From an uncultured Bacteroidota bacterium (lineage in GTDB: Bacteria; Bacteroidota; Bacteroidia; Bacteroidales; P3), in NCBI GenBank assembly GCA_902774845.1, contig CACYJU010000007.1, forward strand, positions 1-64,000: DNA of 64,000 nt, read 5' to 3'. Positions within the stretch are counted from its first letter, which is position 1; each line of letters starts with the position of its first letter. Positions 22,480 through 31,757 of the stretch are shown piece by piece. The position numbers and the translations under genes are program-made. A model generated the notes under the pieces. It saw only the letters and a list, made by a program, of their open reading frames with translations, was not told the DNA's origin and searched no databases.

Positions 22480-22533
22480 GTGGTTTTAGTACAGTAAAGG
22501 TTTGCAAAAGTACGAATAAAAATTTAAAACGAC

Positions 22534-22566
22534 GAAAGCCGAGGCCCTCTGGTGGTCTCGGCTTTA
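22534..22566 (-). terminator. Hairpin terminator at the island edge
   Basis: AAAGCCGAG and CTCGGCTTT form a perfect 9-bp stem around a 15-nt loop. On the minus strand it is followed by TCGTCGTTTTAAATTTTT. It closes whatever is transcribed from the island side and isolates the ligase gene. Confidence 0.6.
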
Positions 22567-22589
22567 CGGCTTATAGGTTGAAAGAGCTC

Positions 22590-22700
22590 TTACTTGGCAG
22601 GCTCCCACTTGCAGCGGACGGGCGACACGATGGCACCCTCCTTCGCCCGCTTCTTCCGCCGTATGAAAGGCAGCACCCCAAAAGAATACAGAAATTCCAC
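22590..22700 (-). other. Small open frame or gene remnant (about 36 residues)
   Basis: A minus-strand frame ending at 22590 encodes VEFLYSFGVLPFIRR followed by a basic, gene-like tail ending CKWEPAK. It has no ATG; GTG at 22700 is the nearest start, and the frame stays open upstream into the next gene in another phase. A terminator hairpin follows at the right distance. It may be a small protein or the C-terminal relic of a gene broken when the island arrived. I cannot name a family. Confidence 0.25.
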
Positions 22701-22744
22701 ATTCAGCCACCAGCGACGTTGATTTTTTTCAAAGAACGCGCAAG

Positions 22745-22781
22745 CCCCCTCTCTAACCAGAGAGGGGGTCGGGGGGTGAGT
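22745..22781. repeat. Dispersed hairpin repeat, copy 1
   Basis: CCCCCTCTCT-AACC-AGAGAGGGGG followed by TCGGGGGGTGAGTC closely matches the element at 61982-62016. Here it overlaps the stop codon of the 22753-23163 gene. Confidence 0.7.
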
Positions 22782-23163
22782 CTTTTCTCTTCTTCTTCTC
22801 CACGTTAATCGGCGTGCTGTGGGGGAAGGCTATGCTGTAGGCGGCATCCAGCGCTTTAAGGTTCACCTTCCGCATCCCTATCCCCAGCCTTACGGACACC
22901 ACCGCCCGCAGAAACTCGCGGCTCGTGCGTGGATACAACGCTGGTGGCGGGATAATGTCTAATCCGTATATCTGCTCCTCGTCGACCACCGTCTTGCTGC
23001 ACACCTCCCAGACGAAATCGTCTGTCGCCTCGCTTCCGAACCACGAGGTCAGCACCCTCCGCGCGCAGAATCTGCGGTATTGCATCCCGAGGAGCCGTCT
23101 CGTGCGCTCCAGCCGTAGCCAGAGCTGCACGAAACATTCCTGATTGTTCTCTATCGTAATCAT
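22753..23163 (-). CDS. Hypothetical protein, island gene
   Basis: This 136-residue protein is rich in Arg and aromatic residues (LWLRLERTRRLLGMQYRRFCARRVLTSWFG), lacks a signal peptide and looks globular and helical. I do not recognise a family. The last residues, DSPPDPLSG, are encoded by a dispersed hairpin repeat that continues past the stop, so the natural C-terminus was probably replaced. It is 62 nt downstream of the primase-like gene in the same direction, with a 30-bp direct repeat in the gap, and may form one transcript with it. Confidence 0.6.
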   Translation of the reverse strand: MITIENNQECFVQLWLRLERTRRLLGMQYRRFCARRVLTSWFGSEATDDFVWEVCSKTVVDEEQIYGLDIIPPPALYPRTSREFLRAVVSVRLGIGMRKVNLKALDAAYSIAFPHSTPINVEKKKRKDSPPDPLSG

Positions 23164-23185
23164 ATCCGAAATCCAATTTTGAAAA

Positions 23186-23215
23186 TGACTAATGACTAAT
23201 GACTAAAATGACTGA
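23186..23215 (+). repeat. 30-bp direct repeat, left copy
   Basis: The sequence is made of AATGACT heptamers ending in AAAATGACTGA and is identical over 30 bp to 30327-30356. The two copies bracket about 7.1 kb of accessory genes. Confidence 0.65.
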
Positions 23216-23225
23216 TGCCGATATA

Positions 23226-25523
23226 CTATTTCGTTTTGCGAAAAACACCCTTCTCTAAAAACACCACCAAGCCCTGTTTACGCCAGTTCTTGAGCATCTG
23301 TTCTACTGCGTTCCTACTCACTCCGGCTCCTTTGATCGCTATGCTTTGCTGCGTCGCCTGCTCAAAGGTGAACTGCAGATCCAATCGGTCATAGATGGTG
23401 TCGTTCTTGCCGCGCTTTACGCGCACAACTCTTTCGCTTCCCGCATACTCCCTGCTCGCAAAGGCGTTCTCTATCCTCTCCCTGAAGAAGTGCAGCGCGT
23501 TCTCCAGCAGCGAGTCGGCCACCACATCATACACCTCCAGCATCTGCGCCGTTTGCGCCTTTATCAGAAGCTCCTTCCAGAGGTCGGGATGTTGCTTCAG
23601 GCGGTTCTCCGCACCGTTCAACCCATGCTTCTGTATGAGCCCTTCGCACACCTTGCAGAGCATCAGGCAGCAGGTCATCCTCTGCGCCGTCACGCACACG
23701 CGGAACCTCTGGCGCGCTCCCACCTTGTCGTCGTTCATCATCGTCTCCAGGCGCACTCTCTCGAGCCATTCGCGTCCTTTGGCTTCGAGCTTCGGCAGCA
23801 CCACCTCGCCTTGCATCAGCGGCAGCAGGTGGGCTATCTGCTGTATGCGCTCCTCCTGTCGCGGGGTCAGCACGTAGGGCTTCTCCTCCAGCGGAGCGTA
23901 CGTGTTGTCTGGCGTCCTGGCGATGGCTATGCGGCTCTGGAAGCCGTCGGTGTAGTTGTTCACCACTCTATACAATGCGTCGGGCGTTCCGCACATCGTC
24001 ACGTTCCACAGCAGCCGCTCGATATGCACGTTCACTGCTTCTGCCGAGCGTGCCTCTCGCTCGTATTTTGTGCCGTCATAGCTCTGTCTGAGCATAATCG
24101 AAAAGTCGCTCATCGTCGATTTCCACTTCTGCGCCACCGTGTCGGCTTCGGGCGTGAACGAGTAGGCGTGCTTCCCCTCGGTGTTGGCCAGCCGCTCGGC
24201 CAGGTTCGCCACCGTGTTGTTCAGCGTCAGGCACCTCACCGGCAGCTTCGGCTCCTCGGGTTGCTCTTTCTTGTTCTTCGCCGCTCTTTTCTTCGCGCGC
24301 CACTCGTCCTCCTGCGTCTGGTACATCTTGTCCAGCGCCTGCACCTCGCTCATCCAGGCGTCCACCACAGGGTCGATCGACCCTTTGCCCGACGCGAAGT
24401 CGCCTGCGATATAGGCTATGATGTTCAGCCCTTTCTTCTGCCCGTGCACGTCGAGCGTCACGCCTGTCGCCAGCGCCCCGATGCAGGGACAAACGGCCGT
24501 CACCACAGGCATCGCCAGCTGCGGCCCCACCGCCTCCACCGAGTCTTTCACTCCTTGCGGAAGCTTTCTCAGCGAAAGTTGTGCATCAGTAGCCGAACCC
24601 TCGCTCTCGTCCGCCGTCTCCTCGCTTCCCGCACCCCTCTTGAGCACCATCACTATCTCGTCCATCACGCGCGATCCTTTCGTAGGTTCCTTGCAGGCGG
24701 AGTGGACGATCGTGCGCATCTCCTCTATCGGAAGCCCGTATCTGGGCATCACCTCCAGCAGCCATTCCTCCCTGTCGTCGCAGATAGCTCTCAGGTTAGC
24801 CGCCAGCCGATGCAGCTGCTTGTTCCTCTCGCCCTCCGAGGGCTCTCCGCCAACCCGACGCCAATACTCCGCAATAATCTCCGCATATCCAACCCCCTTA
24901 AACTCCCGAGGAAAACGTTTCTCCTCCGCAACCTCCATCTCCTCCGGAGCCTCCGGTAAATCCGGGATATCCGTCTTCTCCGGAATCTCCGCACCCCCGC
25001 CAAGTTCAAACACCTCATCATCCAAATAGACAAGATCCTCCGCGTTGTCGGTAGTAGTAAAGAACACCCGGGTGATGTCCTTCGCCCCTTGGTCGTATTC
25101 CACGCCCAGCAGCTCGCTCGCCCACCGCAGGTTCTCCTCTTGCGTCAGCTCCGCCCTGCGGCGGAATACCAGATGGTATCCCGCGCCCCGTGCGCTCAGT
25201 TCGAGCATAAGAAGGCCCAGTTCTTCTTTCTTGGAAAGGATGCGTTCCTTCGTCGCTTCCAGTTCTTCGGCCTTGATGTGGTCGATATCCATACCCACCG
25301 AGTTGCTCGCTTGTGTGGCGCCTTTAAGCTTGCCGTCCTCGCCGGGCAGACAGCTGTAGTTCATCTGCAGCAAGTGTGTCTTCTGCGTCTCGTCGCCGTT
25401 TCTGATGGCCATCACGGTGGTTTTCTGCTTGCGGCTTCCGCGCAGCGTCAGATAGGACTCTCTCGATTCGATGGGGCGCATCATCTTCGCACCGCCTTTA
25501 TAATAAATTACGTATGTACTCAT
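23226..25523 (-). CDS. VirE-N/BT4734-like (AEP-like primase) + DUF3987 ATPase protein
   Basis: The 765-residue protein starts with a VirE-N/BT4734-like domain. Its motifs read like an archaeo-eukaryotic primase: GMDIDH (residues 77-82, DxD), SARGAGYH (110-117, the SxH block) and KDITR (148-152, third acid). A Glu/Pro-rich linker (about 175-205) and a helical segment lead to a DUF3987 region with a P-loop GDFASGKGS (374-382). This pairing suggests a primase-helicase-like factor, as carried by mobile replicons and by Bacteroides chromosomal islands. No integrase or origin is seen nearby. Activity is inferred. The gene is GC-rich like its neighbours, and its leader holds an ATCAACAT array. Confidence 0.7.
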   Translation of the reverse strand: MSTYVIYYKGGAKMMRPIESRESYLTLRGSRKQKTTVMAIRNGDETQKTHLLQMNYSCLPGEDGKLKGATQASNSVGMDIDHIKAEELEATKERILSKKEELGLLMLELSARGAGYHLVFRRRAELTQEENLRWASELLGVEYDQGAKDITRVFFTTTDNAEDLVYLDDEVFELGGGAEIPEKTDIPDLPEAPEEMEVAEEKRFPREFKGVGYAEIIAEYWRRVGGEPSEGERNKQLHRLAANLRAICDDREEWLLEVMPRYGLPIEEMRTIVHSACKEPTKGSRVMDEIVMVLKRGAGSEETADESEGSATDAQLSLRKLPQGVKDSVEAVGPQLAMPVVTAVCPCIGALATGVTLDVHGQKKGLNIIAYIAGDFASGKGSIDPVVDAWMSEVQALDKMYQTQEDEWRAKKRAAKNKKEQPEEPKLPVRCLTLNNTVANLAERLANTEGKHAYSFTPEADTVAQKWKSTMSDFSIMLRQSYDGTKYEREARSAEAVNVHIERLLWNVTMCGTPDALYRVVNNYTDGFQSRIAIARTPDNTYAPLEEKPYVLTPRQEERIQQIAHLLPLMQGEVVLPKLEAKGREWLERVRLETMMNDDKVGARQRFRVCVTAQRMTCCLMLCKVCEGLIQKHGLNGAENRLKQHPDLWKELLIKAQTAQMLEVYDVVADSLLENALHFFRERIENAFASREYAGSERVVRVKRGKNDTIYDRLDLQFTFEQATQQSIAIKGAGVSRNAVEQMLKNWRKQGLVVFLEKGVFRKTK

Positions 25524-25530
25524 GATGATT

Positions 25531-25572
25531 TATGTTGATAGGTTGATATGTTGATGGGTTAAAGGTTAATGG
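25531..25572 (-). repeat. Tandem array of ATCAACAT-type units in the primase leader
   Basis: Read toward the 25523 start, the sequence runs CATCAACATATCAACCTATCAACAT just ahead of the ATG. The words are the same as in the riboflavin synthase, glmS and mrp leaders. Confidence 0.55.
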
Positions 25573-25963
25573 TTTTGCGGACTTTCTGGGCTATCGCTTT
25601 CGCCTGTCTTACCAGCTCGTCGGGCAGCTCTTTCTTGCGGCGTTTCTCCATCGTGAAGACGAAGTAGTACTTGCCGTCGCGGCCTAAGGTCAGCGAGCTG
25701 TTGTCCTCGCGGAAGATGGGCGTGTTGCGCTTGCGTCGCGGACGTTCGGTGATATAGACGTAGCCGTCGCGCATAGCCTGCACCTTGCATTCGGCGATGA
25801 AGGGCTCCATCTCCACGTAGTCGAGGCACACGAAGTCCATGATGTTCAATCCGTCTTCGGTCTTTGTGAAGTCCATAAAGCCCTTGAGCGATGTGTTCGG
25901 TGCCGGGATAGGGGTACGTTGACCTTTGTTCTGGGTGTTGCTGTTTTTGCTCTGTTTCTTCAT
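25559..25963 (-). CDS. Hypothetical basic protein, island gene
   Basis: This is a 134-residue protein with a disordered basic N-terminus (MKKQSKNSNTQNKGQR), a central acidic helix (DFVCLDYVEMEPFIAECK) and a basic C-terminal half (ERPRRKRN, MEKRRKKELPDELVRQ). No family is recognised. Its charge pattern and its place just upstream of the primase-like gene in the same direction suggest a nucleic-acid-linked accessory factor (inference). The stop lies 36 nt before the primase start, with a tandem array in the gap. Confidence 0.6.
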   Translation of the reverse strand: MKKQSKNSNTQNKGQRTPIPAPNTSLKGFMDFTKTEDGLNIMDFVCLDYVEMEPFIAECKVQAMRDGYVYITERPRRKRNTPIFREDNSSLTLGRDGKYYFVFTMEKRRKKELPDELVRQAKAIAQKVRKTINL

Positions 25964-26110
25964 TGTTTTAAGAGTTTTGCGAGAGAAGTTTTCAGAAGGG
26001 TGGCCACCGATTCTCGCGAGACTTCATCCGCTTCAACTCTGGTTAAAAATTATTGTTTATTGGCTTCACGACTGAAACCGAAGGCAAAAATAGGAAACAA
26101 CAAGACGCAA

Positions 26111-26143
26111 AAAAGGCAATAACCGAATGTTATTGCCTTTTAT
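26111..26143. terminator. Bidirectional terminator
   Basis: AAAAGGCAATAAC-CGAAT-GTTATTGCCTTTT is a perfect 13-bp stem with T/A runs on both sides. It closes the coiled-coil gene pair (26206-27302) on the minus strand. Confidence 0.8.
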
Positions 26144-26205
26144 TGGTTTTCTTATTGGCAGGTCACCCCAACCAATAACAAAATCCGCTGTTGCGTTATT
26201 GGATG

Positions 26206-26691
26206 TTAGTGCGTTTTGAAGATGCGGTCGATGTCGTCACACACCTTTTCGGAGGGAGAATTTGCCGTTTTCAGGTTAGGCGGCAACATCTTGTTGTCTT
26301 TCAGGCAGAAAACGCTTTGTGCAATGGTCCAGTCTTTGAGCCAATAACGTATGATATAAGCCAGCGCAGCCGTCGAAGAGTGCCACACTATGGGGTGTTG
26401 AGGGGCGGTGCCTTCTCCACAGCAGACATAGACCCACCCGAGGCGTTCCACCTCGCTGCGCCTTATCCATTCCTTCTCGGTGAGGCGTGTGTAGACGTTC
26501 TCCCAGTGTTCGATGCCGTCTTGGTCGCCGTCTAACCCGAAATTCGGATATATTTCTTGTTGGTCGGCGTTTGGGGCAGTCTTGCCTACGGGCGAAGGTG
26601 TTCCAAAATTGTTGGTTTGGTGTTCGATGTGCGGCTGGTAGTTGAATATCCAGGCGAACTGGTTGAGGGTTGTAGGATTGTCGTTGTTCAT
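26206..26691 (-). CDS. Hypothetical protein of a coiled-coil gene pair
   Basis: This 161-residue soluble protein has an N-terminal segment IFNYQPHIEHQTNNFGTPSP, which resembles the C-terminal tail of the upstream neighbour. It is followed by a conserved-looking acidic/aromatic domain (HWENVYTRLTEKEWIRRSEVERLGWVYVCCGEG). Its ATG overlaps the neighbour's stop by 4 nt. No family is recognised. The segment from residue 60 to 130, rich in Trp and Tyr, looks like a compact binding domain; the shared tail suggests that the two proteins contact each other or a common partner. Confidence 0.6.
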   Translation of the reverse strand: MNNDNPTTLNQFAWIFNYQPHIEHQTNNFGTPSPVGKTAPNADQQEIYPNFGLDGDQDGIEHWENVYTRLTEKEWIRRSEVERLGWVYVCCGEGTAPQHPIVWHSSTAALAYIIRYWLKDWTIAQSVFCLKDNKMLPPNLKTANSPSEKVCDDIDRIFKTH

Positions 26692-27302
26692 TGTTCGAGG
26701 AGTCTATTGGTTGGCTGATTGGGTTGAGGGGTCGGAAAGTGGTTGGTTTGCTGTTGTATCTGAGGTTTGTAGTTTTGGATTTGAGTCTTTTCGGACTCGT
26801 CGTCGAGGTGTTCGAGGAGCTCTTTGATGTCGTCTGAGACGTCTAGTTTGGCTGTGGCGAGCAATTCGGTTATGACAGTCTTGGCGGCCTCGCGCTTGGA
26901 GGCGATCTTGCGTTTGGAGATGTTCAGGTAGGTGCGGAGGTTCTTTTCGAAGTCGTCCTGCGGGGATTTCTTGGCCATTCCGGCTGAGAGTTTGTTCATC
27001 TCGGCGAGTTGTCGGTCTTTCGCCTCGATTTGTCGGTCTTTTTCCTCCAGTTGACGTTTGTACTCCTCGATTTGTCGGTCTTTCTCTGCCAACAGTCGCT
27101 CTTTCTCCTCCAGTTGTTGTCGCTGCGATTCGCTTTCTTCTTTCAGTTTACGGTTTTCCTCGACAATCGCCGCCATGTGGTCTATCAGCTTTATCTCATC
27201 CTCCAAAGATGTCAGTTTTACGAATAGTTCGGTCTGCTCTTTGTCGAGTTCCCTGCGCCTCATCCGCGCCATTTCCAGAAGGTCATTAAAAGTGTTATCC
27301 AT
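26688..27302 (-). CDS. Coiled-coil protein of the same gene pair
   Basis: The 204-residue protein is dominated by a long coiled coil (about residues 10-110) with a run of EKDRQIEEYKRQLEEKDRQI heptads. A short helical domain follows (NLRTYLNISKRKIASKREAAK), then a Gln/Asn/Pro tail IQNYKPQIQQQTNHFPTPQP. The tail echoes the start of the downstream protein. No signal peptide or membrane helix is present. The role is unknown; structural or scaffolding work is the natural guess. A promoter-like TACCTTTG and a perfect inverted repeat precede it. Confidence 0.65.
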   Translation of the reverse strand: MDNTFNDLLEMARMRRRELDKEQTELFVKLTSLEDEIKLIDHMAAIVEENRKLKEESESQRQQLEEKERLLAEKDRQIEEYKRQLEEKDRQIEAKDRQLAEMNKLSAGMAKKSPQDDFEKNLRTYLNISKRKIASKREAAKTVITELLATAKLDVSDDIKELLEHLDDESEKTQIQNYKPQIQQQTNHFPTPQPNQPTNRLLEQ

Positions 27303-27360
27303 AGTAAAGTTGTGTGTTTGAAAAGGTTAAAAATGTGGTTTGAAAAGTGAGAAAAAATAT

Positions 27361-27382
27361 CATGTTGCCAACCAGCAACATG
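27361..27382. promoter_or_regulatory. Perfect 8-bp inverted repeat upstream of the coiled-coil gene
   Basis: CATGTTGC-CAACCA-GCAACATG lies between the -7 box and the start codon of the 27302 gene. It could be an operator or a leader hairpin. Confidence 0.4.
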
Positions 27383-27411
27383 TGTCAAATGCAACCCGTT
27401 TATGTTTGCCA

Positions 27412-27419
27412 CAAAGGTA
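27412..27419 (-). promoter_or_regulatory. -7 element for the coiled-coil gene pair
   Basis: TACCTTTG is read on the minus strand about 110 nt ahead of the start codon. No -33 TTTG sits at the ideal distance. Confidence 0.45.
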
Positions 27420-27576
27420 CGAAGAAAGCGTCGAAGGTTTTGAGGAATTTATGAACATTTTTTACCAGTCAGATTTATTACACCTTCATACAGCGAATTA
27501 GCAATGTAAGGCGCGAGTGGATTGGTTAGAATGGCTTTGGATCGACTCATGCCGCATGAGAAAGAAAAACTTTTCG

Positions 27577-27584
27577 TATATTTG
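27577..27584 (+). promoter_or_regulatory. -7 element for the secreted hypothetical gene
   Basis: TATATTTG is 22 nt ahead of the ATG at 27607; the -33 region is not recognisable. Confidence 0.4.
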
Positions 27585-27606
27585 CAGTTGTTAATATGAT
27601 ATCAAT

Positions 27607-28299
27607 ATGAAAAAAACTGTTGCTCTTGTTTTTGGTTTATTGCTAACCGTCGTATCTTATGCTCAAAAGGATGTTACGAAGTTTTTAGGGATTCCTGTGG
27701 ACGGCACAAAAGCCGCTATGATACAGAAACTTAAAGCTAAGGGTTTTAAACACAACGTAACATTTGACTACTTGGAGGGCGAATTCAATGGAAGGGATGT
27801 TGAGGTTCATGTTGTTACGAACAACAACAAAGTGTGGAGAATAATGGTCAAGGATAAATATCCAACATCGAAGGAATCAACCATCAAGACAAGGTTCAAC
27901 ACATTATGCGACCAGTTTGTGAAAAATGGGAAATACATCCCTGCAAATTTGACTGGGGAATATAAGATAGATGAAGACGAGGACATTTCAGTCCAAATGG
28001 AAGTTTACAATAAGGTGTATGAAGCAGTTTACTTTCAGACTTCAGAAAACGACAGGGACTCGGCAGCGGTACGAAAATGGGCGGAAGACATTGTAAGCAA
28101 GAAATACACAGAAGAGGAGCGAGAAAATATGAGTGAGGAGGAATCCCAACAACTATTTATGGATCTGGTCGTCGAATGGATCACGGAAAGAATATCGAAG
28201 AAATCAGTGTGGTTTACAATTTCAGAGTTGTATGGCGATTATTCGATAATCCTTTACTACGATAATGAATACAACCACGCGAACGGCGAAGATTTATAA
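27607..28299 (+). CDS. Secreted hypothetical protein
   Basis: The 230-residue protein has a clear signal peptide (MKKTVALVFGLLLTVVSYAQ) and a mature part that begins with a short repeat-like domain, KFLGIPVDGTKAAMIQKLKAKGF, a pattern I associate with small Bacteroidetes periplasmic proteins. The C-terminal half is acidic (EEERENMSEEESQQ). It is not a lipoprotein. No enzyme motif is seen. It is the only plus-strand gene in this part of the island and has its own promoter; AT-richer composition than the primase gene suggests a separate origin. Confidence 0.65.
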   Translation: MKKTVALVFGLLLTVVSYAQKDVTKFLGIPVDGTKAAMIQKLKAKGFKHNVTFDYLEGEFNGRDVEVHVVTNNNKVWRIMVKDKYPTSKESTIKTRFNTLCDQFVKNGKYIPANLTGEYKIDEDEDISVQMEVYNKVYEAVYFQTSENDRDSAAVRKWAEDIVSKKYTEEERENMSEEESQQLFMDLVVEWITERISKKSVWFTISELYGDYSIILYYDNEYNHANGEDL

Positions 28300-28334
28300 A
28301 TGTTATCAGTAATCAGTATTTAGCAGTTTGGATT

Positions 28335-29633
28335 TTACTTATGCTGAATACAATTATCATCAAATAAGGAGTACTGTGCGGGATTATTAGTTCTCACAGC
28401 ATATTGATTCAGTTTTTTTTGAGGGATGAACTCGTTGAGCCAACCATTCTTCCGAGACACTTCATACGCTCCTTTGTATAGTTTAACAAATTCAGATCGA
28501 CTGGAACACTTTCTTGCGGCTTCCTTGCAAGCTTCGTATGTCCACTTTCGTGGGGACACCTTTGGAATGGGTTTCACAAACCAATTGTAATCATCTAACC
28601 ATCTATTTTGGGAAGCAACCTGATAGGCGGGGTGATTTCCTTTCCCGAAATCCCATCTTGTATTGTATTTTAATGCTTCATTATAGCATGTTTCGTATGT
28701 CCATTTCTTGTTTCCGAGAGTACTAAACCATGTATAATCATCAATCCAGCCCTTTCGCAATGCTTTAGCATAAGCCGATTGACAATTGTCACTAAATTCT
28801 GTCCTCGAATTGTATTTTCGGGCCTCATCATAGCATTCTTTTCTTGTCCATCTACGTGCAGAACCTCCTATTGAACCATGTCCGACACCTGTTTTTGCTC
28901 TATTTAGCAAAACCCATCCATTTTTTTCATAATGTTTTACAACCTCATCTTCATATTTTTGAGCCTCTAAAACAGTACAGTTATCATACCAATAAACAGG
29001 TTCAGGAACACTTATAGCGTGGTCTCTGGCAAATGTTAAAACAGGCGAACAAGACTTTCCGAAAGTGGATATGCCTAAATGTTCCAAATGGCGTCTCTTT
29101 TTATCGTCAGTAAGGCCTACATACACAACATTATATCCTTTAAATTCGTAAGAATACACGCATCGTATTCTTTCTTTCAAATCAATTTGTGATGGTATGA
29201 AATCTTCTATCCAACCGTTCTTGACAGCAATGTTATATACAAACTGATTTCCCTTGTAAAAGTCCGTTCTACTTGAATATTTTTTTGCTTCTTCCCGTAC
29301 TCTCTCATAATTATTCCAGTATCCTTTAGGTTTGAATAGAAGAGGCATCCAATCATAATCATCGAGCCACCCTCGCTGTAAGGCTTTAGCATACGCACTC
29401 CTACTCTTTTTTTGGAATTCTGTCCTAGATGCGTATTTTTTTGCTTCTTCATAGCAGGATTCATAGGTCCACCGGATTGATCGATAACCTCGGACAAACC
29501 AGGTATAATCTTTTATCCAACCATGTCTTGTTGCTGCGTGGTATGCGCGGGGATTATTCTCGGCAAATTCAGTAGAACATTTACATTGTTTAGCTAATTC
29601 GTAGCACTCATCATATGACCAAATATGCCGCAT
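28335..29633 (-). CDS. GIY-YIG nuclease flanked by three plus three helical repeats
   Basis: The 432-residue protein carries six copies of a 42-residue repeat (about residues 5-46, 55-96, 106-147, 262-303, 311-352, 364-405), each like WTYExCYxEAxKYxSRTEF...AYxxAxxxGWLDDY. Between repeats 3 and 4 lies a GIY-YIG domain: VYSYEF...VYVGLT (159-175), Arg180/181, Glu228-230 and Asn244. The tail has QYSLF (420-424), which fits a beta-clamp-binding motif. The repeats probably bind DNA, as the NUMOD/IENR repeats do in homing enzymes. It is AT-rich, ends 4 nt from the XRE gene and is likely controlled by that regulator (inference). Confidence 0.75.
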   Translation of the reverse strand: MRHIWSYDECYELAKQCKCSTEFAENNPRAYHAATRHGWIKDYTWFVRGYRSIRWTYESCYEEAKKYASRTEFQKKSRSAYAKALQRGWLDDYDWMPLLFKPKGYWNNYERVREEAKKYSSRTDFYKGNQFVYNIAVKNGWIEDFIPSQIDLKERIRCVYSYEFKGYNVVYVGLTDDKKRRHLEHLGISTFGKSCSPVLTFARDHAISVPEPVYWYDNCTVLEAQKYEDEVVKHYEKNGWVLLNRAKTGVGHGSIGGSARRWTRKECYDEARKYNSRTEFSDNCQSAYAKALRKGWIDDYTWFSTLGNKKWTYETCYNEALKYNTRWDFGKGNHPAYQVASQNRWLDDYNWFVKPIPKVSPRKWTYEACKEAARKCSSRSEFVKLYKGAYEVSRKNGWLNEFIPQKKLNQYAVRTNNPAQYSLFDDNCIQHK

Positions 29634-29636
29634 AAC

Positions 29637-30104
29637 TTATTCTCCTTTCTTCACGAAATCGAGTTGCATGTCCAATGCGGAGGCTATCCGGCATAGAATA
29701 TCTAATCCTGGAGAATACTTCCCCTGTTCTATTCGGCTCATGTTGGCTGGTGTGATTCCTGACTTTTGTGCCAACGTTTTGGCATCCATCTGCTGTTCCT
29801 CCCGCAGCTCTTTTATCCTATGCCCGATGCGCTCACGGTCAAGATCTCGGTCAGGACCGGCGAAAAGGGGCATTTCGAATCCGTGGGAAACGAGTTGTTG
29901 AGAGAGATAATTGAAATAGTCTTTTCTCTCTAATTTGAAAAAATTGTCGGTAATCGTACAGATGGCTTGGGAATACTCTTTTTCTTGTATCAAAGGCCAA
30001 GAGGTACTGAAGCCAACTACAAAAATCCCTTCGGTGGGGTGCTCTACTTTAACTTGCGAAGTTCCATTCTTCGCTTCTGCAATTGATAAAATCTTTGTTT
30101 CCAT
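29637..30104 (-). CDS. XRE-family transcriptional regulator
   Basis: This 155-residue protein has an N-terminal 85-residue domain of unknown fold and a C-terminal helix-turn-helix of the Cro/CI type: RIKELREEQQMDAKTLAQKSG then ITPANMSRIEQGKYSPGLDIL. It sits 3 nt upstream of the GIY-YIG nuclease gene in the same direction, so the two form an operon with the regulator first, a layout typical of self-controlled nuclease or addiction-type loci. A TATCTTTG -7 box is at 30160-30153. A nested palindrome lies about 115-240 nt upstream and is a candidate target. Confidence 0.85.
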   Translation of the reverse strand: METKILSIAEAKNGTSQVKVEHPTEGIFVVGFSTSWPLIQEKEYSQAICTITDNFFKLERKDYFNYLSQQLVSHGFEMPLFAGPDRDLDRERIGHRIKELREEQQMDAKTLAQKSGITPANMSRIEQGKYSPGLDILCRIASALDMQLDFVKKGE

Positions 30105-30152
30105 TACGATACGTTTTTAAAGTGTTCGACACATTTATAATGAATTCGCTTG

Positions 30153-30160
30153 CAAAGATA
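30153..30160 (-). promoter_or_regulatory. -7 element of the XRE/GIY-YIG operon
   Basis: TATCTTTG on the minus strand is 49 nt ahead of the XRE start codon. The -33 match is poor. Confidence 0.45.
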
Positions 30161-30217
30161 TAAATAATTATCAAATTAGATAATTTATCCCAAATTTTAA
30201 CATTTTTAGTCAAAATC

Positions 30218-30345
30218 AGTCATTAGTCATTAGTCATTTTCATTTTTGGATCTGTCATTTGGCTCACTATAATATAAAATTTATTTTATATTATAGTGGC
30301 GATTTTGACACATGTGAAATCGATTTTGACTAATGACTAATGACT
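30218..30345. repeat. 128-bp nested palindrome (MITE-like)
   Basis: The outer arms AGTCATTAGTCATTAGTCA (30218-30236) and TGACTAATGACTAATGACT (30327-30345) are exact inverse copies. The inner arms CACTATAATATAAAAT (30265-30280) and ATTTTATATTATAGTG (30283-30298) are another exact pair, and both share the same dyad at 30281/30282. It encodes nothing. It could be a miniature mobile element, a cruciform, or an intergenic regulatory hairpin. Confidence 0.7.
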
Positions 30346-30356
30346 AAAATGACTGA
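30327..30356 (+). repeat. 30-bp direct repeat, right copy
   Basis: Identical to 23186-23215. It also forms the right arm of the nested palindrome and extends 11 bp past it. Confidence 0.65.
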
Positions 30357-30454
30357 ATGACCACTTTTAGTTCTCAATCACTTGACTTTCAGTTGTCAAT
30401 AATTTTTTTCAAAAAAAATTGCCGTACCATTCGTAGACCGCAATGGCGAGGTTG

Positions 30455-30462
30455 TACTTTTG
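30455..30462 (+). promoter_or_regulatory. -7 element for the 30627 gene
   Basis: TACTTTTG is followed by a leader of about 160 nt that contains the second copy of the 41-bp repeat. Only TTCG is found near -33. Confidence 0.45.
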
Positions 30463-30489
30463 CATCGTCATTCAAACCCAAGCAATCGC

Positions 30490-30530
30490 CCACCTAACTA
30501 CCACCTAACTCCGCACAAGCTCTGCATAAA
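30490..30530 (+). repeat. 41-bp dispersed repeat, copy 2
   Basis: 38 of 41 positions match the inverse of 4829-4869. Immediately after it runs an AATCCGGA-type tandem (30531-30556). Confidence 0.6.
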
Positions 30531-30626
30531 AATCCGGAGAATCCGGAAAATCCGTTCCAACCTGAAAACTCTAAGCGCTTAAGTTATAATTAACCCAATC
30601 AATCAACCCTTAAAAACCTAAAAACT

Positions 30627-31364
30627 ATGGCAAACACTCAACACAACCCAATCACGACCAAATGGTCCGGAGCCGTAGGAGGCTTCACCTACAGAATCCT
30701 GCGCGGAAAGCAGATCATCGCCGAGCGCGCCTCGCACATCAACAACCCCAAGTCCGCCGGTCAAACTCGCGTACGCATGAAGTTCAAGCTGGCCAGCCAG
30801 TTCAGCTCTCTCTGGAACGCCATCCTCAACGCCAACCTGGCTAAGGTAGAGACCGACTCCGTCCTCAACCGCGCACTCGCCACCAGCGTGGCTTACCATG
30901 TGGCTGACATCAGCCAGCACGCAGCTATCGTCGACCTCGAGGACTTCGAGAACGCCTTCAACGCCCGCACCCGTCAGGCGGCCTCCGCTGGCATGACCGT
31001 CCACTTCAACGCCGTCACCCAGGACATCGTCGCAGCCGACGGCGACGTGGTCACCTACCAAGTCGTAGCCTTCGACGAGGAGTCGAACCCCATCGGATTC
31101 AACACCGTCACCTACGTCTCCGACGGAACGGCGAAGAACATCGACCTGCCCGTCATCAAGGGCGACGCCAGCCGCTACGACCTCATGGCCTTCTCCACCA
31201 CGCTGGACGAGAACACCGAGTACACCGGCCCGCTGGGCAACATCAAAGGCGACGACCCCGAGTCGCTCTCGGCCAACACCTACAGCGTCCTGGTGAGCGC
31301 CCTCTCGAGCGTCAGCGGAACTATCAACGGCATCCAAACCGGCTCTTACCTGGTGACTCCGTAA
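30627..31364 (+). CDS. DUF6266-like protein of unknown function, strongly biased codons
   Basis: The 245-residue protein lacks a signal peptide. Its start (WSGAVGGFTYRILRGKQIIAERASH, then NPKSAGQTRVRMKFKLAS) has the look of DUF6266, a Bacteroidetes family whose N-terminus has a Gly-rich strand set followed by NPxTxxQxxxRxKF. The remainder is beta-rich, with D/T/S-rich turns. Codons end almost always in C (AAC, ATC, GAC, TCC), the pattern of a highly expressed gene, in contrast to the AT-rich genes before it. It has its own promoter and terminator. I would guess a structural role; family membership is tentative. Confidence 0.55.
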   Translation: MANTQHNPITTKWSGAVGGFTYRILRGKQIIAERASHINNPKSAGQTRVRMKFKLASQFSSLWNAILNANLAKVETDSVLNRALATSVAYHVADISQHAAIVDLEDFENAFNARTRQAASAGMTVHFNAVTQDIVAADGDVVTYQVVAFDEESNPIGFNTVTYVSDGTAKNIDLPVIKGDASRYDLMAFSTTLDENTEYTGPLGNIKGDDPESLSANTYSVLVSALSSVSGTINGIQTGSYLVTP

Positions 31365-31393
31365 ACTCCCATCAGCCCTGTGCGGGCACGCAC

Positions 31394-31425
31394 AAAGGCA
31401 CCCCTCGTAAGAGGAGTGCCTTTTC
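31394..31425 (+). terminator. Terminator of the 30627 gene
   Basis: AAAGGCACCCCTC-GTAA-GAGGAGTGCCTTTT forms a hairpin with one mismatch and a U-rich tail, 30 nt after the stop codon. Confidence 0.8.
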
Positions 31426-31548
31426 GTTATCGTTTTGGTTTTGTTAAACCTGTTTTACCTGTTTTTCCCCTTAACACAAATTGCCATATAATTGACCATT
31501 AATTAATGGATAATTCGTGGAAATTAATGTTCTAAAACTCACACAGAT

Positions 31549-31688
31549 ATTTGTTTTCTTTGTCTTTCTTGTCTTTAATTATGGTCGGCCCAAAGGGCTG
31601 ACTATCGTCAAAATCTTATTTAAAATCGTTCAACTCTTCTTTTAAAAATTTTCTAATTGATTTTTTTAAGATTTTGAGCGAAGCGACC
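31549..31688 (+). repeat. GGTCG/CGACC dispersed repeat, copy A (longest)
   Basis: It starts with ATTTGTTTTCTTTGTCTTTC, passes through GGTCGGCCCAAAGGGCTGA and ends GATTTTGAGCGAAGCGACC. Three other copies are at 61864-61971, 63133-63180 and 63239-63355. No reading frame is conserved. The other bases of the 393-nt gap 31365-31757 are AT-rich and featureless. Confidence 0.7.
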
Positions 31689-31757
31689 CTCTTGGTGTAT
31701 GGGTGTAATCGTGTAAAGGTGTAGGATTATCGTTTGCCTCCTTCGGAGTCATTCTGC

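Follow-up and report, generated by a model that had tools for sequence, protein, structure and literature searches.

The window analysed here, a 64,000-nucleotide stretch of chromosome from a rumen Bacteroidales, carries a gene for a 432-residue GIY-YIG nuclease placed directly behind a small XRE regulator. The effector is shown to be swapped, and the control region kept, across XRE cassettes, because the same XRE cassette elsewhere carries HNH_3, CoiA-like or NUMOD-GIY-YIG genes. We give about an even chance of being right to the reading that this is an autoregulated, horizontally moving defence cassette, in which a recruited phage homing-type nuclease would cut invading DNA.

The repeat nuclease

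The open reading frame picked out by an earlier sequence-only reading is real and intact and lies on the minus strand. The nuclease and XRE genes are each present in a single copy in the genome of the window (G000). The features of the nuclease gene are:

28335 to 29633, minus strand: repeat/GIY-YIG nuclease gene, stop included; 432 residues, intact ORF
29496 to 29624, minus strand: repeat 1, residues 4-46
29346 to 29474, minus strand: repeat 2, residues 54-96
29193 to 29321, minus strand: repeat 3, residues 105-147
28866 to 29183, minus strand: GIY-YIG catalytic core, approximately residues 151-256, with Y160, Y171, G173, R181, E228 and N244
28725 to 28853, minus strand: repeat 4, residues 261-303
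28578 to 28706, minus strand: repeat 5, residues 310-352
28422 to 28547, minus strand: repeat 6, residues 363-404
28362 to 28376, minus strand: QYSLF tail, possible clamp-like motif, residues 420-424; disordered, pLDDT about 33-40

By its residues and its modelled fold the protein is a member of the GIY-YIG superfamily, and cleavage is predicted. The six signature residues of the core are each kept in 96-97% of 74 homologous cores and are invariant in a 34-sequence alignment. Without an alignment, structure prediction gave a poor model (mean pLDDT 58.5), which was replaced by an AlphaFold model from the 34 sequences (mean pLDDT 80.9, pTM 0.36), in which the linkers are of low confidence and the final 25 residues disordered. 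Residues 155-255 of this model match the I-TevI catalytic domain (1mk0) with a Z score of 9.5 over 91 residues at 3.0 A, and the modelled core matches UvrC with a Z score of 5.5. I-TevI was likewise top-ranked in a profile search of PDB sequences (E=0.003); plain Foldseek of the model gave a weak result (E=1.5). The retained Arg, Glu and Asn of the sequence-only reading (R181, E228, N244) align in sequence, and the catalytic residues line up in the model.

No Pfam or NCBIfam family matched the 432-residue protein, PF01541 being absent even at E<=1; 19 of the 34 family members match PF01541, the window protein not among them. Membership of the NUMOD family was rejected for the window protein, which gave no NUMOD match in Pfam; a NUMOD-like domain of the I-HmuI type occurs in two of the 34 relatives. 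Membership of the T5orf172/CapR group was also rejected, since none of the 34 family members matched T5orf172 or CapR/DUF723 in Pfam and the repeat columns, with one conserved Cys per repeat, do not contain a CxxC...CxC pattern. PADLOC-DB 2.0 offered no credible effector model for the nuclease and no system fitting the nuclease and XRE pair, a weak match of the nuclease to Csm2 (0.0076) being regarded as chance. The protein matches PHROG 20046 (E=1.8e-49), annotated 'function unknown'. The nuclease evolves under purifying selection (dN 0.016 and dS 0.185 between the G020 and G095 genes; dN 0.10 with saturated dS between G000 and G020).

The six 42-residue repeats announced beforehand were recovered by a repeat HMM, which scored the window protein at 433.9 bits against 8.0 bits for the best of 1000 shuffles. 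Their pairwise identity is 29-63%, and each is modelled as three helices. The symmetrical hold of three plus three repeats on the core, put forward in the same reading, did not survive comparison: among 78 distinct relatives, almost all of them phage proteins, the number of repeats ranges from 0 to 7 before the core and from 0 to 7 after it, with 2-11 repeats per protein and about 30 different arrangements, 3+3 being one of these. Since repeat numbers per side vary freely, the symmetry is incidental, and it was rejected as a functional feature.

The conserved repeat columns (W, C, A, KY, F, Y, W) are structural, and the most variable ones are columns 18, 21, 25, 29 and 32. The variable columns would look like sequence-reading positions, although loose constraint would give the same picture. 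The proposed resemblance to DNA-reading modules holds in that the modules are real and the array behaves like a DNA-binding one; the modules may themselves read DNA. PDB fold searches produced nothing convincing for the repeat (best Z 3.0), and because these searches used the full model and not a lone repeat, the fold is not claimed as new. A Vibrio campbellii plasmid protein (L010:4974-5912) consists of six such repeats without a GIY-YIG core; the repeat array can therefore stand alone. One phage relative (L173:3848-5761) bears a C-terminal extension of about 300 residues, of unknown type, after its GIY-YIG/repeat part.

QYSLF, at residues 420-424, may be a beta-clamp motif, and it is not shared by the family. 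Its counterparts in the two 82% orthologues are QYSISF and QYLISF (G020 and G095), the G011 nuclease is devoid of the motif, and the phage protein L195 ends in QLVLNF. A loose clamp motif was found in five of 76 tails against 0.83 expected, three of these five being the orthologues. The clamp-like tail is confined to the three orthologues (G000, G020, G095) and one phage protein. Replication coupling via the clamp, suggested earlier, is thus not supported as a property of the family, most of which does not have the motif; judged from its sequence, contact of the tail with the clamp is possible for this small subgroup.

The XRE regulator and its exchangeable effectors

The regulator and the elements upstream of it are:

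29637 to 30104, minus strand: XRE regulator gene; 155 residues, N-terminal domain of about 85 residues and HTH_3
30122 to 30132, minus strand: leader element GTGTCGAACAC, counterpart of GTGGCGnCAACAC
30153 to 30160, minus strand: Bacteroidota -7-like box TATCTTTG (TAnnTTTG)
30166 to 30185, minus strand: putative operator, perfect palindrome AATTATC-TAATTT-GATAATT

The XRE frame is transcribed first and leaves a 3-nt gap to the nuclease, as had been noticed, and the pairing is real and conserved. The N-terminal 85 residues or so of XRE gave no Pfam match, and its PADLOC-DB 2.0 matches concern the HTH part only. Five genomes of the genus carry the window XRE or a close homologue of it (73-81% identity), and in three of them the repeat nuclease comes directly after. 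In G059, XRE is followed by an HNH_3 nuclease (4-nt overlap) and then a second HNH gene; in G058, by an unrelated GIY-YIG with NUMOD1 and then a CoiA-like protein. Distant XRE homologues in other Bacteroidales families likewise adjoin nucleases, and the seven XRE matches in the genus that were weak and generic have no nuclease neighbour of such kind. A nuclease of 56% identity lies beside mreB in G011 with this XRE not nearby, so that the pairing is not obligatory.

A survey of the XRE family across 84,980 genomes yielded 80 loci, 79 of them readable. A recognised nuclease lies directly downstream of XRE in 63 of the 79 loci (Bacteroidota): CoiA-like in 31, HNH_3 in 29 (a count that takes in L084, whose HNH_3 motif has one substitution), repeat-GIY-YIG in two and NUMOD-GIY-YIG in one. 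About 20% of XRE loci have no recognised nuclease downstream. The spacing from XRE to effector is nearly always -14 to +26 nt, and only one of 253 other ORFs of these loci has an HNH_3 or CoiA motif. At least 17 switches of effector type were counted on the XRE tree, an approximate figure from a quick tree with many open forks. The occurrence of XRE over unrelated nucleases suggests a plug-in defence cassette, so far unnamed; no description of the XRE-nuclease pairing was found in the literature searched, in which coverage of subscription papers was limited.

Further variants were seen among these loci. One XRE subgroup (L054-L062, L065, L066, L069), with CoiA-like or HNH_3 effectors, carries a C-terminal fusion of about 130 extra residues with the motif HWQQxRYNxxIGDxxYVYVSE; this extension recalls PUA/EVE-type modified-base readers and has no Pfam match. 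An effector of about 245 residues without a family match follows XRE in two families of the order (L042:1921-2655, L049:741-1481), and a 274-residue effector candidate lies 5 nt downstream of XRE at L081:372-1196 and L093:5327-6151, with no match in Pfam or PADLOC.

The control region is kept upstream of the regulator as well. The 110 bp or so before the XRE start show strong conservation in each of the five close loci whatever the effector, so that the same block stands before three different effector types; beyond it the five upstream sequences are unrelated. The wider family has the palindrome consensus AATTGGnAwATTTGCCAATT; of 75 regions upstream of XRE, 54 contain it within 4 mismatches, where mononucleotide shuffles lead one to expect 0.1. 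In 31 upstream regions the leader GTGGnGnCAnCAC follows the palindrome at a distance of about 60 nt and precedes the ATG, usually by 35 nt. A palindromic putative operator is thus found at the promoter of XRE itself, and autoregulation would be the natural inference.

Genomic place and phage relatives

The cassette of the window lies in a polymorphic block:

22480 to 31757, no strand: insert holding the cassette; 9.3 kb, absent in G024, G054 and G110

In these three genomes AMP-binding and esterase genes flank the place without the insert. The empty site was found from the esterase side; a search by way of the flanking gene 27607-28299, tblastn included, revealed none in the genus. The insert also carries a DUF3987/BT4734-like (VirE-like) gene (23226-25523), small unknown genes and, at 27607-28299, a low-GC (0.39) secreted-looking gene. 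No integrase was seen in it, and no protective methylase adjoins the cassette.

The chromosomal place differs between G000 and G020/G095. In the latter two, an HNH_4 gene and a methyltransferase-HIT gene are followed by the cassette, and in G122, G079 and G108 other genes occupy the cassette's slot after the same methyltransferase-HIT gene: PDC-S73, TIR (CAP12-like), or MTase_II with UvrD/PD-DEXK (GajB-like). The PDC-S73 gene corresponds to nSTAND3-Mrr (E 1e-138) and has a KwaB-like gene nearby. The place held by the cassette in G020/G095 is thus a slot for changing defence genes. When 100 neighbours from the wider XRE-nuclease loci were scanned with PADLOC, without a control set, the matches were scattered, with at most two members per model. 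The HNH_4 and methyltransferase-HIT fusion pair (ThsC-like HIT; L012:11865-14101) recurs in L013, L217 and L219, the methyltransferase-HIT gene is also present in L218, and the pair anchors a variable defence slot in the genus.

The relatives of the nuclease are mainly phage-borne, in Vibrio Schizotequatrovirus, Rhizobium phages and Lak phages, and IMG/VR holds 97 confirmed relatives, many on contigs longer than 100 kb. Phage genomes have several copies, placed between conserved genes and packed tightly amid replication genes, for instance flanking primase or between dCMP deaminase and helicase. The sister phage RHph_Y5A has the same flanking genes and no nuclease at the deaminase-helicase and primase sites, and KVP40 is without the tandem nuclease copies of PVA23. 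With relatives at sites that are empty in sister phages, the family therefore behaves like free-standing homing endonucleases; this presence and absence pattern is the mark of such enzymes, for which cleavage of the empty site is predicted. Bacterial copies are rare: four of 190 genomes of the window's family, all in its genus, and two of 393 genomes in the order.

Competing readings and known systems

In the favoured reading, XRE would bind the operator palindrome of its own promoter and hold the operon at a safe level, by analogy with control proteins and antitoxin-like regulators. The 42-residue repeat array would bind a specific long DNA site and the core, shown to be I-TevI-like in fold and residues, would cut it; in the bacterium the nuclease would have been recruited for cutting phage or mobile DNA on entry. 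The catalytic core and fold, a variable repeat array of the sort typical for sequence-specific modules, phage origin with a homing-like presence and absence pattern, swappable nucleases, the conserved promoter block, the operator, the defence slot, patchy rarity and purifying selection count for the defence cassette; the want of a PADLOC match for the pair, the merely scattered PADLOC matches among neighbours, the lack of an adjoining protective methylase, the G011 nuclease without XRE and the loci without a nuclease (about 20%) count against it. We prefer the defence cassette to three rivals: a selfish homing element, a pair for addiction or abortive infection, and neutral cargo. Defence or mobility, the two options named by the sequence-only reading, was the right pair.

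The first rival is a selfish element, a mobile free-standing homing endonuclease with a borrowed host regulator, which would cut cassette-free relatives and copy itself and XRE into them, with no gain for the host. In its favour are the mainly phage-borne family, its several copies per genome among conserved genes, the clean empty sites of sister phages, the I-HmuI NUMOD-like domain of two relatives and the different places of the cassette in G000 and in G020/G095. We consider this reading rather improbable: the regulator slot also serves CoiA-like effectors, and these are not homing enzymes, the polymorphic unit in the window is the 9.3-kb block and not the gene alone, the G020/G095 slot is common to defence genes, and the nuclease is under purifying selection. 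Regulator-first gene order, the XRE/HipB-like HTH, the putative operator at the promoter and nucleases that swap as toxins do would also suit an addiction or abortive-infection pair resembling a toxin and antitoxin, with XRE holding in check a nuclease that attacks the DNA of its own cell. A long, specific-looking DNA-binding array is however unusual for a self-toxin, the nuclease matches no known toxin family and contact between XRE and the nuclease is without support, which makes such a pair decidedly unlikely. Least probable of all is passive cargo of a genomic island, the nuclease having a role unrelated to immunity such as DNA repair or element maintenance; the occurrence in only four genomes of the genus and the DUF3987/VirE-like gene in the insert would fit, but the catalytic residues are intact, selection is purifying and the cis-regulatory block is conserved.

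The defence cassette may be set beside several known systems. With I-TevI, GIY-YIG homing endonucleases and the T4 Seg proteins the nuclease shares the core fold and residues, DNA-binding modules joined to the core, and free-standing phage genes with empty sites; it differs by three-helix 42-residue repeats on both sides (0-7 per side) in place of NUMODs, and the bacterial copy by an XRE regulator of its own. The ICP1 origin-directed nuclease Odn is one of the T5orf172 nucleases with CapR/DUF723/DUF4397 zinc-finger repeats, and its action against PLE is a precedent for such a nuclease as sequence-specific immunity (PMC10448857, PMC8263062). Nucleases of this group too join a GIY-YIG-related core to a variable number of beads-on-a-string DNA-binding modules, which in the window's family, unlike theirs, are not CxxC...CxC zinc fingers. 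CMoRE, or PD-T4-3, is a single-gene GIY-YIG type IV restriction system (PMC12923530) and likewise a chromosomal GIY-YIG enzyme with a proposed attack on phage DNA; it is set apart by a GIYxY-YIG motif and by a C-terminal domain that senses modification, the window protein by its repeat array and its partner regulator. An E. coli screen reported anti-phage activity for a CoiA-domain protein, and PD-T4-3, the GIY-YIG protein of that screen, is now CMoRE (PMC9519451, PMC12923530). C proteins and type II antitoxin regulators resemble XRE in small size, a palindrome at their own promoter and a nuclease gene immediately downstream; here, in contrast, neither a methyltransferase nor a known toxin accompanies XRE, the swapped effectors belong to at least four nuclease types and the N-terminal 85 residues have no family match.

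The phage nuclease family adds a new type of member to a known superfamily, and the arrangement of a regulator with a swappable nuclease is the newer part of the finding. More tentatively, and with the balance somewhat against it, the XRE cassettes could form an unnamed immune architecture spread across Bacteroidota, in which a single autoregulated control unit of operator, leader and regulator would repeatedly take up different phage-type or CoiA-like nucleases, here one with a freely expandable repeat array on both sides of the cutter that would set its site preference; if so, the window protein would in effect be a naturally occurring nuclease whose DNA-reading array can be adjusted in length. 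The array could be a modular DNA-recognition scaffold, if its modules read DNA one by one, and through the sequences of the XRE operator and leader further nuclease effectors can be sought in Bacteroidota. The XRE cassettes would offer a many-genome case of phage homing-type endonucleases taken over by bacteria under a dedicated switch, making directly testable the old question of how selfish endonucleases become immunity.
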